From Pleodorina starrii (Eukaryota > Chlorophyta > Chlorophyceae > Chlamydomonadales > Volvocaceae), in the NCBI GenBank assembly GCA_030267565.1, contig BRXU01000003.1, forward strand, positions 3,242,001 through 3,306,000: DNA of 64,000 nucleotides. Reading direction: 5' to 3'. Below, piece after piece: positions 6,884 through 13,168 of this stretch. Every line of letters starts with the position of its first letter. Positions within the stretch are counted from its first letter, which is position 1. Both the position numbers and the translations under genes were made by a program. Under the pieces are notes generated by a model. That model was not told the DNA's origin and made no database searches. It saw nothing but the letters and a program-made list of their open reading frames with translations.

Positions 6884-9800
6884 ATGAAGATGAAGTGAGT
6901 GGTGGTCTGCGAGCGATAATGTGATATGTATGCGATAATGTAATATGAATACTGGTCTCCAGCCTTTGCTGCTCCGAGTCGCGTCGGGCAACCCAAAGGG
7001 CGATGAGCAACCTCCATGTAACCTGTATTAGAGCAGCATTCACACCTCGACAGTACATCATGTCGTTGCTTTATGAACCAACCGTCTGGGTTCTTGCCGC
7101 CGCCTTAACCCGCCCCGCTGCGCCCTTCCCAGGTCGCCATTCCGCGCCGCTCCGGCGATACTCTCAGCTTGCTGTCTTGCTGTGTTGATTCTGGCGCCCA
7201 GCCGGGTCCTCGGCCATGGTTTCTTGGCCGTCCCCCTCTCCCGCAACATGCACTCGCGGCTCTACGACCCGGACCCCTTAACCGAGTACACACCCACGCA
7301 GCTGAGCGCGGGAGGTGAGGCAGCACGTGTTCACATCCCTCCCCGCCCCCACCCCCGGGCCCCACCCGGGGAAGATTGTCAGGGCACGCAGGGCAACCGA
7401 ACTGCGGCTTGAGCCTCCGCTGCCGCAGCGGCGAAATACCTTCAAGCACTTCGCCCCAAACAAGCAGCCCTGCCTTGACATGCCGTATCCATCGCGGTTT
7501 CCGACAGCCCTTTCTCGTCCACCCCCGCCCGCCCGCCTCCGCCTCCGCCTCCGCCTCCGATCTCAGGTGTGGGTGTGGTGAGCGGCGGCTTCACACGTCT
7601 GTGGCCCAACGGCGCCTTCAGCCCCTGCGGCGACCGCGCCGACGACCCCGCCCCCCGCTGGATGCAGCCCCGCCCCGTCCAGGCCACCTACACGGAGGGG
7701 GACGTGGTGAGGGTTGATTGAGAGCCTCTAATTGTCGCATCCGTTGAGGGGCATCCGGTCTTCCGGTGCCATCGGCGGGCCTCTGCGGCTTTGGCGCAGT
7801 CGGAGCAATGCGGCGCGAAGGCGTGGTGCCTGCGGGGCCTCCATCCTCTGCGGGGCTGAGCTGCCAACAGCACCCCATACAGCAGCGCGACGGCCGAAGC
7901 GTCCCCTTGCTGTACTGGCCGAAGCCTTCCCCTGTTGATACGGTTACCTGCAGATGCGACGACGCGAAGCCCTCCGCCAAGCCATCCACTGCGCTGCACT
8001 CCACGTCCTTAAACCCAAATGACGACGGAAACTACGCCGAGGGATATGATGTTATGATCCCTTCGCCCCACGTGCCGTCCCTCCGTCCCTCCGTCCCTCC
8101 GCCGCCGCAGATTGAGATCTCTGTCAGCATCACCGCCGACCACCGGGGCCGCTTCGCCTTCCGGCTGTGCCCCTCCGTAGCCGTGACGGAGGCCTGCCTG
8201 GACGAGCACTGGCTCGTCCGCGCCGATGCCGTACGACCCGGCGACCGCTACTGGTACCTGACCGCCAAGGCCGACGGCAGCGCGCGGGTGTACCCGCAGA
8301 CGATTTCGCCGTACACCGGCGTGGCGACGTACGGCTTGAAGTACAAGCTGCCGGACGGCGTCACGTGCTCCAACTGCGTGCTGCAGTGGTGGTACGCCAC
8401 GGGCAACTCTTGCACGCTGCCGTGTGTGTCGGTAGGGCGGGGCGGGGCGGGGTGGGGTGGGGTTAGGGTGGGGTTAGGGTGGGGTGGGGTTAGGGTGGGG
8501 TGGGGTGGGGTGGGGTGGGGTTAGGGTGGGGTGGGGTGGGGTGGGGTGGGGTTAGGGTGGGGTGGGGTGGGGTGGGGTTAGGGTGGGGTGGGGTGGGGTG
8601 GGGTGGGGTTAGGGTGGGGTGGGGTGGGGTGGGGTGGGGTTAGGGTGGGGTGGGGTTAGGGTGGGGTTAGGGTGGGGTAGGAGGCCAGGGATTGTTGGGC
8701 ATTGCAAGGGGACGAGGTCTCAAGCCGCGTCTCCGGGTAACGGGATCGTGGTTCCTGCCTGGGCCCCCCTACACACACTAGCGGTGTAGCGAAGGCCTCC
8801 CTGCAGTGCAACGGAGCGTAAGAACCTCGCCGCGCCGCGCCTCACCCTGCAGCCGGATGCCGCATTGCCAGCCCTTCACCCAAGACCCAGCACACCGCCT
8901 CGCCGCCCTCCCACCCCCACCCCCGCAGGAGGATCCCGATTTCAAGCCCGCGGCTGGTCCCAACAGCTGCGATGTGATCGGCATGGGCATTTGCGGATCC
9001 ATCCCCGCCCGATTCCCCGAAGAGTTTTGGAACTGCGCAGACATCGCCATCACTCCCCGCTCCGGAACCAGCCCGAAACCTGCCCCCTCACCCTCACGCT
9101 CGCCCTCGCCCTCGCCGTCTCCCTCGCCCTCGCCCTCGCGCTCGCCGTCTCCCTCGCCCTCGCCCTCGTCCTCGCCCTCACCATCCCTGAGCCCCAGCCC
9201 CAACTGCACCACCTCCGGCTTCTGCACGGGCCGCGCCGCGGGTCTGTACCCCAACCCCTGTGACCCCACCTGCACCTCCTTCCTCAGTTGCGCCAACGGA
9301 GCCACCTACCTGCAGAGCTGCCCCGCCGGCACCGCCTTCAATGTCAATGGGGGTTTCTGTGACTGGCTGGCAAACGTGCAGTGCCGCACCACATCCCCCT
9401 CCCCCAGCCCCACCCCCACCCCAGCCCCGAGATCGAGCCCGTCTCCCAGCCCCAGACCCTCGCCACGGCCTCCTCCCAGCCCCTCCCCCAGCCCTTCACC
9501 CAGCCCGTCTCCCAGCCCGTCTCCCAGCCCGTCTCCCAGCCCGTCTCCCAGCCCGAGTCCGAGCCCTGCCTGCAGTACGTCCAACTGGTGTGTGGGCAAG
9601 GCCGCGGGTCTGTACCCCAACCCCTGTGATCCCACCTGCACCTCCTTTCTCAGTTGCGCCAACGGAGCCACCTACCTGCAGAGCTGCCCCGCCGGCACCG
9701 CCTTCAATGCCAACGGGGGGTACTGTGACTGGCTGGCAAACGTGCAGTGCCGCACCACAGGCCCCTCCCCCAGCCCCTCTCCCAGCCCCTCTCCCAGCCC

Positions 9801-12800
9801 CTCTCCCAGCCCCTCTCCCAGCCCCTCTCCCAGCCCCTCTCCCAGCCCCTCTCCCAGGCCCTCTCCCAGCCCCTCTCCCAGGCCCACCCCCACCCCAGCC
9901 CCGAGCTCGAGCCCGTCTCCCAGCCCCAGACCCTCGCCCGCGCCCTCGCCGCCTTCATCCCGCAAGGTGGTGGGATACCTGGAGAACTGGCGCTGGTGAG
10001 GGGACGGCCGCACGTAGATAGAGGGGAGTGGGGTAGAGGTACTGTAAAGGGGAAATGAGGTGAGGAAACCGCAGCGCCGTGGCGGCAACACAGCGCGCAA
10101 CGCACATCGGGCGACGAACAGGCACTGCTCCGCGGCGCGCTTCCGTTGAAATATGAGCTCTTTTAAGTCTGCCCGCCCCTCTTCTGTCTTCTCCCCTCCC
10201 CCTGTATCCCCAACCTGAAGCCTCCTCACACCGCCATACATGACCGCACTGTGTGCAGGTACAGCCAGGGTGGTGTACCACCCGCCCTGACTGCCTATGC
10301 GTCCAAACTGACCCACATCAACTACGCCTTCAGTTCGATATCGTACAGCCCTCAGTACGACACGTACTACCTGGATTTCACGGTTACCTGGGCGGACCTC
10401 GGCGCCTGTCTCACGGGATCGTGCCCCGCGGTGAGTGTACGGCATGTACACGCGCTTGACTGACGAGACTTGATGGGCTAGCGCTGGGGTTGGGGTTGGT
10501 GCTGGACTGTTTCGCCCTGCCTGCCTGCCTGCCGTGCCCCGGCTACAAGCTGTTTGTGCCCTGCTACCGCCCTCTCCTGCACACCTTGCGCCTTGGCCCC
10601 CTCGCGTAATGCACGACGACCCGCTCCATGCTTCCCTTCCCTTTCCCCCCTCGCTCCGCAGACCTGCATTGCCCTCAACGCCACCTGCCCCGGATCCAAC
10701 CTGGGGCTCGTCCCAACCACCAAAACCGCCACGACGACCTGCCCCGTGGGCTGCTACAACCGCGGCGGCTCGCCCCAGTACCTGCGGGTGTGCAACACAC
10801 TCGCGTCGGGTCTGTCCGCGCCATTGCAAGCCTGCGGCCACATCGCCCTCGTGCAGAACTTCATAGCCAAATCCGCGCCGAACGTCCGCGTACTGCTTTC
10901 CGTTGGCGGTTGGTACGACAGCAACTACTTTTCAATGGCAACGTCGGCGCCGTACCGCGCTCGCTTCCTCGACTCGGTGCTCGACTTCCTCGATACCTTT
11001 GGCTTCGACGGCGTTGACTTTGACTGGGAGTACCCCGGCTGGGAGCACGCGGGTCAGCCGCCGTATGGCGCCACCGAGGGCGGCGACCCCGACGACACGC
11101 GCGACTGCTCCGCCACAACCTGCACGTACGGCAGTCGTACATCTGATGGCGTCAATTTCTTGTCGACTCTCACGGAGCTGCGGTCTCGGCTGGGTGGCCG
11201 CCGAAGTCGTCGGGGGGAGCCCTACCTGATGACCATGGCGGGACCAGGTGAGGCGGCAGGGGGAATGTGTATGTTGGGGCGGGAACCGGGGAGGATGACA
11301 GCCGAGGGGTGGTGGTGGTGGTGCGTATGTGAAGCGAACAGGAGTGGAAATGCGAAGCGAGTGGAAAAGCAGTCACAGCCGGGGGGGAAGCGCCGGGGGC
11401 TGCGCATGTGCGACTTCGGTGGCTTGCCAAAGCCGGGGAGGGGGGTGCAGCCGGGGGTGCAGCCGGGGCAGCTGGGCGGTCAATAACGAGAGGGGAGCTG
11501 CAGGCGGTCCGGCTGCATGTCCCGTTATGGCGTATGTGGACTGACGACGGCACGATGCGCTGCACTGCGCTGCACTGCGCTGCACTGCGCTGCACTGCAC
11601 TGCGCCCTGCGCTGCGCAGGTGGTAACGACAAGCTGGACAAGATGGCCCTCAGCTCGGTTTGCTCACAGCTGGACTGGATCAACATCATGACGTACGGTG
11701 AGTGAGTGAGCACCACTGGGCGCCACCTGCCCTGCCCTGCCCTGACCTGACCTGATGGATCACCGCTTGGGCTGTTCAAGGGCTTCTGCGCGGGAGAGGG
11801 AGCGAGGGGAGAGGGCCCCGCACGATTGAGGACCGCTGGCCTGGGCTGGGCTGGGTTGGGCACCTAGACGGCTGCACGCGCCTCACTGGCGCGCTCTGCC
11901 TCCGCTGCGCAACACGGCAAGCCGCCTCACCTCGGCCGGACCCCCCTGGACCCACCCCAGCACCAAAGACCCAAGACCCAACCAGCCGCACCCCCACCCC
12001 CACCCCCACCCCCATCCCCCTGCCCTGTCCGCAACTAATGCTGCAGACCTGCACGGGCCCTGGGACTCCACGACCGGCCACCAGTCGGCTCTGTCGGACC
12101 CCTCGGGTGACCCCATGACGGTGGGGGCGGTGGTGTCGCAGTACGTGGCCCGGGGCTGCCCCAGGTCCAAGCTGGTGGTGGGCGTACCCTTCTACGGCAG
12201 GTGGGTGGCAGCGGTGGCAGCGGCGGGCCGGACCCCTGTGTCGGCCCCTGCTCGGGACGTCGTAGCGGGGCTATCCGCTATCGTGTAGGGGTACCGTCCG
12301 CGCAGCTCTCCGCCATTCATTGACCCCGGTGCCGCGGCGGTGCCAGTAAGGGTGCACTCGACTGCACGAGCTGACGGGGTACCACTGACGATCATGATCC
12401 TGATACGATCATGATCCTGGTCCTGACCCGCGGGTGGGGGACACTCCGGCACGGCACTTGGACGGACGGAGCCGTTACTGCCTTGGGGGGGAGGGGAGGG
12501 GGGGACTCGTGCGTGATCGGGTTCGTTGCGCTCCCCGCGCTCTTCCGGTGCCGGTATATGGCCCCCAGCCGCTACCCATCGGCTGGTGGCTGGGGGCACA
12601 TGGGCCGGCCCCTAGCTAGGTTCGCGATTCGCGGTTGCCCCGACCGATCCGCGCCGGCACCCCTCCGCGCGCTTCCCGGCTTGGTAAGGTTACAGGTTAA
12701 CAGGTATGTTCGATAAGTATTGCTGGGTTCCGGGTCCGTTCGCTAGCACCGTCTCCGTCTCCCCTGCGGCATCTTCTTACCCTCCTGTTTCCTGTTTCTT

Positions 12801-13168
12801 TACCCGACCCAACTCCGACCCTGATCCCGACCCACGACAGGAGCTTTAAGGGCGTGCAGGCGGGTCCCAACGCCGCCCTGCCCGGCTACGGCCAGCCCTT
12901 CTCCGCCTCCCTCACCAAGCAGCAAACCGAACCCATTCCTATACAGAAGCAGGTGGTGGCCAAGGGCTACCGACCGATTTACGACACAGCACGTAACGCG
13001 TCGTACGTGTACGACGCGGCGTCACAGACGTTTATCTCGTACGACAACGAGGACGCTGTGGCGGCCAAAGCGGATTTCATCCTCCGGGAGGGGCTGGCGG
13101 GCGCAATGGTTTGGGCCCTGGGTCAGGAGACTCCCTCGCTGTGGGCCGCCCTCACGGGCAAGCTCTGA
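6884..13168 (+). CDS. Secreted LPMO-CBM14-CBM14-GH18 chitinolytic fusion protein
   Basis: Ten exons join in phase to 1012 residues: 6884-6894, 7133-7314, 7567-7706, 8111-8431, 8929-9995, 10259-10430, 10662-11247, 11620-11697, 12047-12200, 12841-13168. Residues 1-31 form a signal peptide (MKMK start, hydrophobic core, cleavage ...VLG|HGF). Cleavage exposes His32, the N-terminal copper ligand of a chitin-binding type-4 LPMO (32-259). Support comes from HGFLAVPLSRN, FSPCGDRADD, His122 in TADHRGRFAFR (second copper ligand), CVLQWWYATGNSC and EEFWNCADIAI; it looks most like AA15. Pro/Ser linkers separate two CBM14 modules (311-370, 433-492; six Cys each). GH18 spans 564-1012 with KVVGYLENW, LLSVGGW, DGVDFDWE (747-754, catalytic Glu754), MTYDLHGPWD and a C-terminal GAMVWALGQE. 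The protein should oxidise, bind and hydrolyse chitin outside the cell. Every domain looks complete. The tiny first exon (MKMK plus a split codon) is the main uncertainty; it is supported by its GTGAGT donor and matching phase. Confidence 0.93.
8441..8690 (+). repeat. Telomere-like G-rich minisatellite inside intron 4
   Basis: Units of GGGGTGGGGTTAGGGTGGGG are repeated through most of the intron between exons 8111-8431 and 8929-9995 of the LPMO-chitinase gene. The G-rich strand is the coding strand, so the pre-mRNA would carry many G-quadruplex-capable runs just 3' of the donor. Same motif family, opposite orientation, as 2363-2692. Confidence 0.9.
9226..9937 (+). repeat. Internal duplication: linker plus CBM14 module within exon 5
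   Basis: The CBM14-coding segments 9232-9390 and 9596-9756 differ at only about ten of 160 bases. The following linker text (GCCCCGAGMTCGAGCCCGTC then TCCCAGCCCCAGACCCTCGCC) is also shared near 9424 and 9899. The flanking Pro-Ser coding tracts (CCCAGCCCCTCT and CCTCGCCGT units) are themselves tandem repeats. Exon 5 therefore grew by recent unit duplication. Confidence 0.85.
11553..11618 (+). repeat. 10-bp tandem repeat next to a splice acceptor
   Basis: CGCTGCACTG units run into the acceptor GCTGCGCAG|GTGG of the GH18 exon at 11620. It lies at the intron end, where the polypyrimidine tract would normally be. Confidence 0.75.
12681..12786 (+). repeat. Dispersed intron-associated repeat, copy 1
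   Basis: Lies in the last intron of the LPMO-chitinase gene. It reads TTGGTAAGGTTAC, then a GGGTTCCGGGTCCGTTCGC-like part, then CCGTCTCCGTCTCCCCTGCG and a T/C-rich end. The same order is found at 60531-60627, and shorter versions at 36117, 39754 and 47411. Confidence 0.7.

Follow-up and report, generated by a model that had tools for sequence, protein, structure and literature searches.

A predicted secreted AA15-CBM14-CBM14-GH18 fusion protein in the volvocine green alga Pleodorina starrii

Identification of the fusion gene

In a 64,000-nucleotide stretch of the Pleodorina starrii genome (positions 3242001-3306000 of contig C3; hereafter the window) we identified a gene which very probably encodes a secreted, chitin-degrading enzyme with two activities in a single chain, with secretion and activity predicted from the gene sequence. 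The gene comprises ten exons on the forward strand (6884-13168), which were spliced from the DNA into one open frame of 1012 amino acids. The predicted protein joins a lytic polysaccharide monooxygenase (LPMO) domain of the AA15 type, two CBM14 modules and a GH18 chitinase domain. The preliminary description of this DNA had proposed such a protein, with CBM14 modules on Pro/Ser linkers and with His32, His122 and Glu754 (in DGVDFDWE) as key residues. Rebuilding of the gene recovered the same single frame, the three residues were found in the spliced translation at the positions given, and in the Pfam analysis of the whole protein LPMO_10, CBM_14 (twice) and GH18 each scored above the curated cut-off. 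Matches to Trypan_PARP and FhuF_C were under their Pfam cut-offs. The features of the gene are as follows.

6884-6894, 7133-7314, 7567-7706, 8111-8431, 8929-9995 (+): exons 1-5
10259-10430, 10662-11247, 11620-11697, 12047-12200, 12841-13168 (+): exons 6-10
6884-6894 and 7133-7214, with an intron between (+): signal peptide, residues 1-31; predicted cleavage after VLG exposes His32
7215-9051 (+): AA15-type LPMO domain, residues 32-259, exons 2-5; PF03067 and 5msz match
7215-7217 (+): codon of His32, predicted N-terminal copper ligand of the histidine brace
8141-8143 (+): codon of His122, predicted second copper ligand, aligned with His91 of TdAA15A
9025-9027 (+): codon of Phe251, axial residue
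8929-9995 (+): exon 5, 1067 bp open, residues 219-573
9214-9387 (+): CBM14 module 1, residues 314-371; Pfam CBM_14
9580-9753 (+): CBM14 module 2, residues 436-493; Pfam CBM_14
9964-13165 (+): GH18 chitinase domain, residues 564-1012, exons 5-10; PF00704
11028-11030 (+): codon of Glu754, predicted catalytic acid of DGVDFDWE

Gene model and single-chain structure

All nine introns are of the GT...AG type with lengths of 231-640 bases, and the stop codon is located at 13166-13168. The coding GC content at codon positions 1, 2 and 3 is 0.56, 0.63 and 0.82. The least certain part of the model is the first coding exon of 11 nt (6884-6894), whose exact form was predicted from the DNA. An upstream exon is required, since the frame of exon 2 contains no ATG between the preceding stop and the LPMO domain.

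Exon 5 opens with the C-terminal 41 residues of the LPMO domain, which include the NCADI motif, and ends with the first GH18 residues (KVVGYLENWR); between them lie the two CBM14 modules and three Ser-Pro linkers, which have 16, 22 and 23 SP dipeptides. Because the LPMO end, both CBM14 modules and the GH18 start share this exon, the fusion is not an artefact of exon joining. The shared exon, together with an ortholog in Astrephomene gubernaculifera, supports the proposed single-chain reading, so that the predicted union of LPMO, CBM14 modules and GH18 in one chain is well supported at the gene level. Two adjacent genes, encoding an LPMO-CBM14 protein and a chitinase, might have been wrongly joined, as the gene model rests on prediction from DNA and P0128 (350 aa) is an AA15 protein that has CBM14 but lacks GH18. 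However, the boundary would then fall inside one 1067-bp open exon, and the Astrephomene database protein has the identical domain order, which makes a wrong joining highly improbable.

The Astrephomene protein, Agub_g8935 (P0001), is labelled as “hypothetical protein” in NCBI and as “Chitinase” in UniRef. It was retrieved by both the LPMO and the GH18 search and aligns over its full length with gaps in the linkers. Like the window protein, it has the order LPMO-CBM14-CBM14-GH18 and the VLG/H cleavage site, and the identity reaches 72.4% in the LPMO domain (228 residues) and 74.1% in GH18 (444 residues). It differs in its length of 1098 aa, its longer linkers and its diverged CBM14 modules. 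Within the catalytic domains, no gap was found at any of their eight exon junctions; the closest gap, of two residues, is located shortly ahead of the 631/632 junction. Signal peptides and linkers of the two proteins align poorly.

LPMO domain

The hydrophobic core of the predicted signal peptide spans residues 13-24, with a peak 12-residue Kyte-Doolittle mean of 3.02. The following domain matches Pfam LPMO_10 (PF03067) over residues 32-257 (E 2e-12, 48.5 bits, cut-off 23). Its best match among the PDB sequences is the Thermobia AA15 LPMO 5msz (E 9e-16). The other matches at E<=1 are the AA13 LPMO 4opb (0.002) and two obscurin fragments (0.76 and 0.82), and no AA10 chain is among these four. 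By these comparisons the domain groups with AA15 rather than with other LPMO families, in line with the earlier proposal; its placement within AA15 is resolved for the pair with Astrephomene only. The window protein therefore does not appear to be an AA10-GH18 fusion of the bacterial type.

For the putative copper site we used an alignment of 48 rows, consisting of the window domain and 47 of 51 proteins tried (four LPMO_10-GH18 proteins gave no domain). The position of His32 is occupied by His in 38 of the 48 rows and by a gap in the other 10, and that of His122 is His in all 48. At the axial position, Phe was found in 47 rows and Tyr in one; the residues equivalent to Phe251 are Tyr184 in TdAA15A and Phe187 in AaAA15A. 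An axial Phe is present in the chitin-specific TdAA15B (PMC5823890) and in AaAA15A (PMC8393829). Phe251 would agree with chitin activity, but as a near-universal residue of the aligned set it is weak evidence. By number, the domain holds ten Cys; ten conserved Cys were described for the Thermobia LPMOs and their animal relatives (PMC5823890). TdAA15A and TdAA15B share the AA15 family and the histidine brace with the window LPMO, and TdAA15B, which has the axial Phe too, acts on chitin and not on cellulose (PMC5823890). In contrast to the window protein, both consist of the catalytic domain only (PMC5823890), and TdAA15A has Tyr at the axial position.

CBM14 modules

The Pfam model CBM_14 (Peritrophin-A) matches twice, with E 8e-21 and 74.3 bits for the whole protein compared to a cut-off of 22.1; scored singly, the modules reach 46.6 and 46.2 bits. 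CBM14 was termed chitin-specific (PMC5823890). Between the two modules, identity amounts to 89.7% in protein and 90.8% in DNA, and the Astrephomene pair likewise shows 89.7% identity, whereas modules of the two species are only 48-50% identical. Such a pattern, alike within a species and divergent between species, is as in concerted evolution. It could have arisen by a separate duplication in each line or by gene conversion; the latter is favoured here because the position and the two-copy state of CBM14 are shared by both species.

GH18 domain and its relatives

The GH18 domain was identified by PF00704 over residues 564-999 (E 8e-70). All family motifs (SxGG, DxxDxDxE and MxYD) are present as SVGGW at 711, DGVDFDWE at 747-754 and MTYD at 850, and the three D and the E of the catalytic motif are invariant in nine relatives. 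A search against PDB gave 140 distinct sequences at E<=1e-3, with the chitinase 5gzu as best match. At about residues 604-690 the domain carries a Cys-rich insert, which on its own has no match in PDB at E<=1. Invariant Cys are present in the insert of nine aligned members of the clade described below, the window protein not being among the nine.

The protein search with GH18 revealed 457 matches at E<=1e-20 among 7995 scored candidates, of which the best 120 were used. The five matches listed right after Astrephomene all belong to Siphonaria or Obelidium (40-42% identity), followed by one further sequence, Podochytrium, Polychytrium and then Edaphochlamys debaryana (38%). Siphonaria, Obelidium, Podochytrium, Chytriomyces, Polychytrium and Rhizoclosmatium are presumably all chytrids; the Siphonaria GH18 records bear the NCBI mark UNVERIFIED_CONTAM. 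A tree was built from 50 rows, some of them fragments, comprising the window domain and 49 proteins picked from the best 120 of the 457. The window protein, Astrephomene and Edaphochlamys form an algal clade (98/97), and together with three further sequences and 14 chytrid sequences they form a eukaryotic clade of 20 rows (100/100) on a long stem. The chytrid clade (100/100) sits beside the algal clade, and the branching order of the three subclades has no support in the tree. Obelidium P0044 is placed far outside the 20-row clade on a very long branch. The clade with the Cys-rich insert (P0009-P0024, P0026, P0031) joins volvocine algae, chytrids and the three further sequences.

The chytrid proteins of this clade (14 rows) reach at most 42% identity in an alignment that covers 97% of the GH18 domain, and the five that were aligned share the Cys of the insert. 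In contrast to the window protein, no LPMO domain appears in their precomputed Pfam lists. Since the first five matches listed after Astrephomene come from Siphonaria and Obelidium, a recent transfer of GH18 from chytrids was considered. It is not supported, as the algae form their own clade beside the chytrid one. An ancient transfer from chytrids would be compatible with the tree.

Comparison with published fusions

According to Sabbadin et al. (2018, PMC5823890), Chlorophyta possess AA15 LPMOs, and fusion partners within the family include CBM1 and CBM14. The same study described AA15-GH18 fusions in Chlorophyta, Bacillariophyceae and tunicates, which, compared by description only, resemble the window protein in having AA15 and GH18 in one protein. 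AA15 with GH9 or GH18 modules was also mentioned elsewhere (PMC8615602). The suggestion in the preliminary description that no green-algal protein joining LPMO and GH18 had been described therefore fails: green-algal AA15-GH18 fusions have been in print since 2018, and the window gene is a further example. The function of such a green-algal protein was not the subject of any paper found among the open-licence PubMed Central titles, which leave subscription papers mostly uncovered, and no papers on Astrephomene chitinases were found there either. The Astrephomene genome was reportedly published after 2018, and for this reason the fusions reported in that year are probably from other species, outside the matches listed here.

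Our own census of the LPMO-GH18 fusion relied on word-based searches and is incomplete. Among proteins of 0.55-1.75 times the query length, the LPMO search gave 8 matches from 1112 candidates, and only that of Astrephomene carries GH18. With a shorter query, 40 of 1073 candidates matched, and none of the matches listed has GH18.

Four bacterial-looking LPMO_10-GH18 proteins (P0037, P0072, P0103 and P0121), for which we infer a bacterial origin, also have LPMO and GH18 in one chain. They differ from the window protein in both parts: compared to the AA15 domain, their LPMO parts give E 0.94, E 8.5 and, in two cases, no match, and their GH18 domains fall outside the 20-row clade. These differences suggest that the algal fusion arose independently of the bacterial-looking ones. 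Scans of viral contigs with the AA15 alignment (61 pattern matches) and the GH18-clade alignment (7) confirmed no viral kin. For a prokaryotic source, the LPMO-domain scan of genome contigs confirmed none of 13 pattern matches, a single-protein query finding close relatives only.

Possible mechanism and role

An attack on chitin by two activities is well supported as a prediction from the domain content. Removal of the signal peptide would expose His32 as N-terminal copper ligand, and the AA15 domain with its axial Phe may then introduce oxidative nicks into crystalline chitin. The CBM14 modules on their long, extensin-like Ser-Pro linkers could anchor the enzyme to chitin or within the algal matrix, while the GH18 domain would hydrolyze the loosened chains. 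Synergy in trans was observed between TdAA15A and a GH18 endochitinase (PMC5823890), which makes the joining of both domains plausible. By analogy, synergy may also occur within the chain and be the benefit of the fusion. The enzyme may act from within the extracellular matrix in defence against chytrids and other organisms with chitin walls, the likeliest of the roles considered and one to which we give an even chance. For the Volvox matrix, “chitinases against fungi” were mentioned (PMC9818292, citing Amon 1998).

For other chitin-related genes, the P. starrii genome (136 Mb, 95 contigs) was searched in reading frames with introns ignored, so that all counts are lower bounds. The Pfam LPMO model matches the fusion gene only. 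With the LPMO domain, five matches were obtained, four in the fusion gene and a weak one on contig C12 (E 0.015). On reading, the latter proved to be a second, divergent AA15 gene with HGYLKSPISRNY, STNHGGRM and EQFNNCA, which is absent from the Pfam LPMO_10 matches; the 9.9 kb retrieved at this locus gave neither GH18 nor CBM14 at E<=0.01. CBM14 gave 17 matching stretches, two in the fusion gene and 15 elsewhere. One of these shares its frame with a pherophorin domain (PF12499, E 5e-7); it covers the second half of the CBM14 module, and its score there of 21.9 bits is marginally below the Pfam cut-off of 22.1. Pherophorins are a volvocine family, and the product of this frame is apparently a volvocine matrix protein that carries a chitin-binding module.

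C12, about 2150239-2153479 (L032 2740-5980): second AA15 gene, N-terminal His after a signal-like stretch, axial-motif Phe
C10, about 272646 (L018:1501-3012): CBM14-pherophorin frame with half a CBM14, a Pro/Ser rod and PF12499

On C28 (84638-236529; L009, L011 and L012), three near-alike multi-CBM14 open frames were observed, which apparently form a recent gene family; L011 and L012 have three CBM14 stretches each according to Pfam.

The CBM14 stretches outside the fusion gene, among them the one beside the pherophorin domain, would also fit an enzyme that remodels the matrix of the alga itself, for example at hatching or cell division, with a chitin-like or GlcNAc-containing component as substrate. 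Ser-Pro linkers are typical of matrix modules and point in the same direction. However, we know of no chitin in volvocine walls or matrix, and such remodelling, although possible, is unlikely in our view. In its favour, the chitinases of Chlorella, an alga with chitin in its wall, are assumed to act in wall remodelling (PMC4014436). Going further, volvocine algae might possess an undescribed GlcNAc polymer in their matrix, with CBM14-pherophorins as anchors and the LPMO-CBM14-GH18 protein as a matrix cutter at daughter-colony release or in wound response; we regard this idea as quite improbable.

A nutritional enzyme, recovering nitrogen and carbon from chitin debris like crustacean moults or fungi, would be consistent with the presence of LPMO, CBM14 and GH18 together and with the GH20 matches (three stretches at one place, on C5). 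However, GH20 also acts in ordinary glycan turnover, and GH18 gave five matches at two places only, three in the fusion gene and two on C54. A nutritional role is therefore rather doubtful.

For the window itself, the 30 frames scanned with Pfam at E<=0.01, out of 159 unspliced stop-to-stop frames of at least 150 aa (including frames within the fusion gene, and of a kind that short exons escape), gave no neighbouring gene with a Pfam match above its cut-off: 29 had no match, and the remaining one had a match under the cut-off. The first half of intron 4 (8432-8680) consists of a G-rich GGGGT repeat with telomere-like, GGGTTAG-like units.

Three points weigh against a chitin-degrading enzyme in matrix defence. 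The enzyme is known here from its gene alone, the axial Phe has little power to discriminate, being found in 47 of 48 rows, and CBM14 on other matrix-type proteins of the genome suits a role in the own matrix equally. An intact AA15-CBM14-GH18 gene is present in a volvocine alga and has an ortholog in a second genus; single-chain oxidative and hydrolytic cleavage of chitin in an alga can therefore be tested with recombinant protein. It may also be asked why the alga keeps the fusion enzyme alongside further proteins with CBM14, among them an apparent pherophorin.
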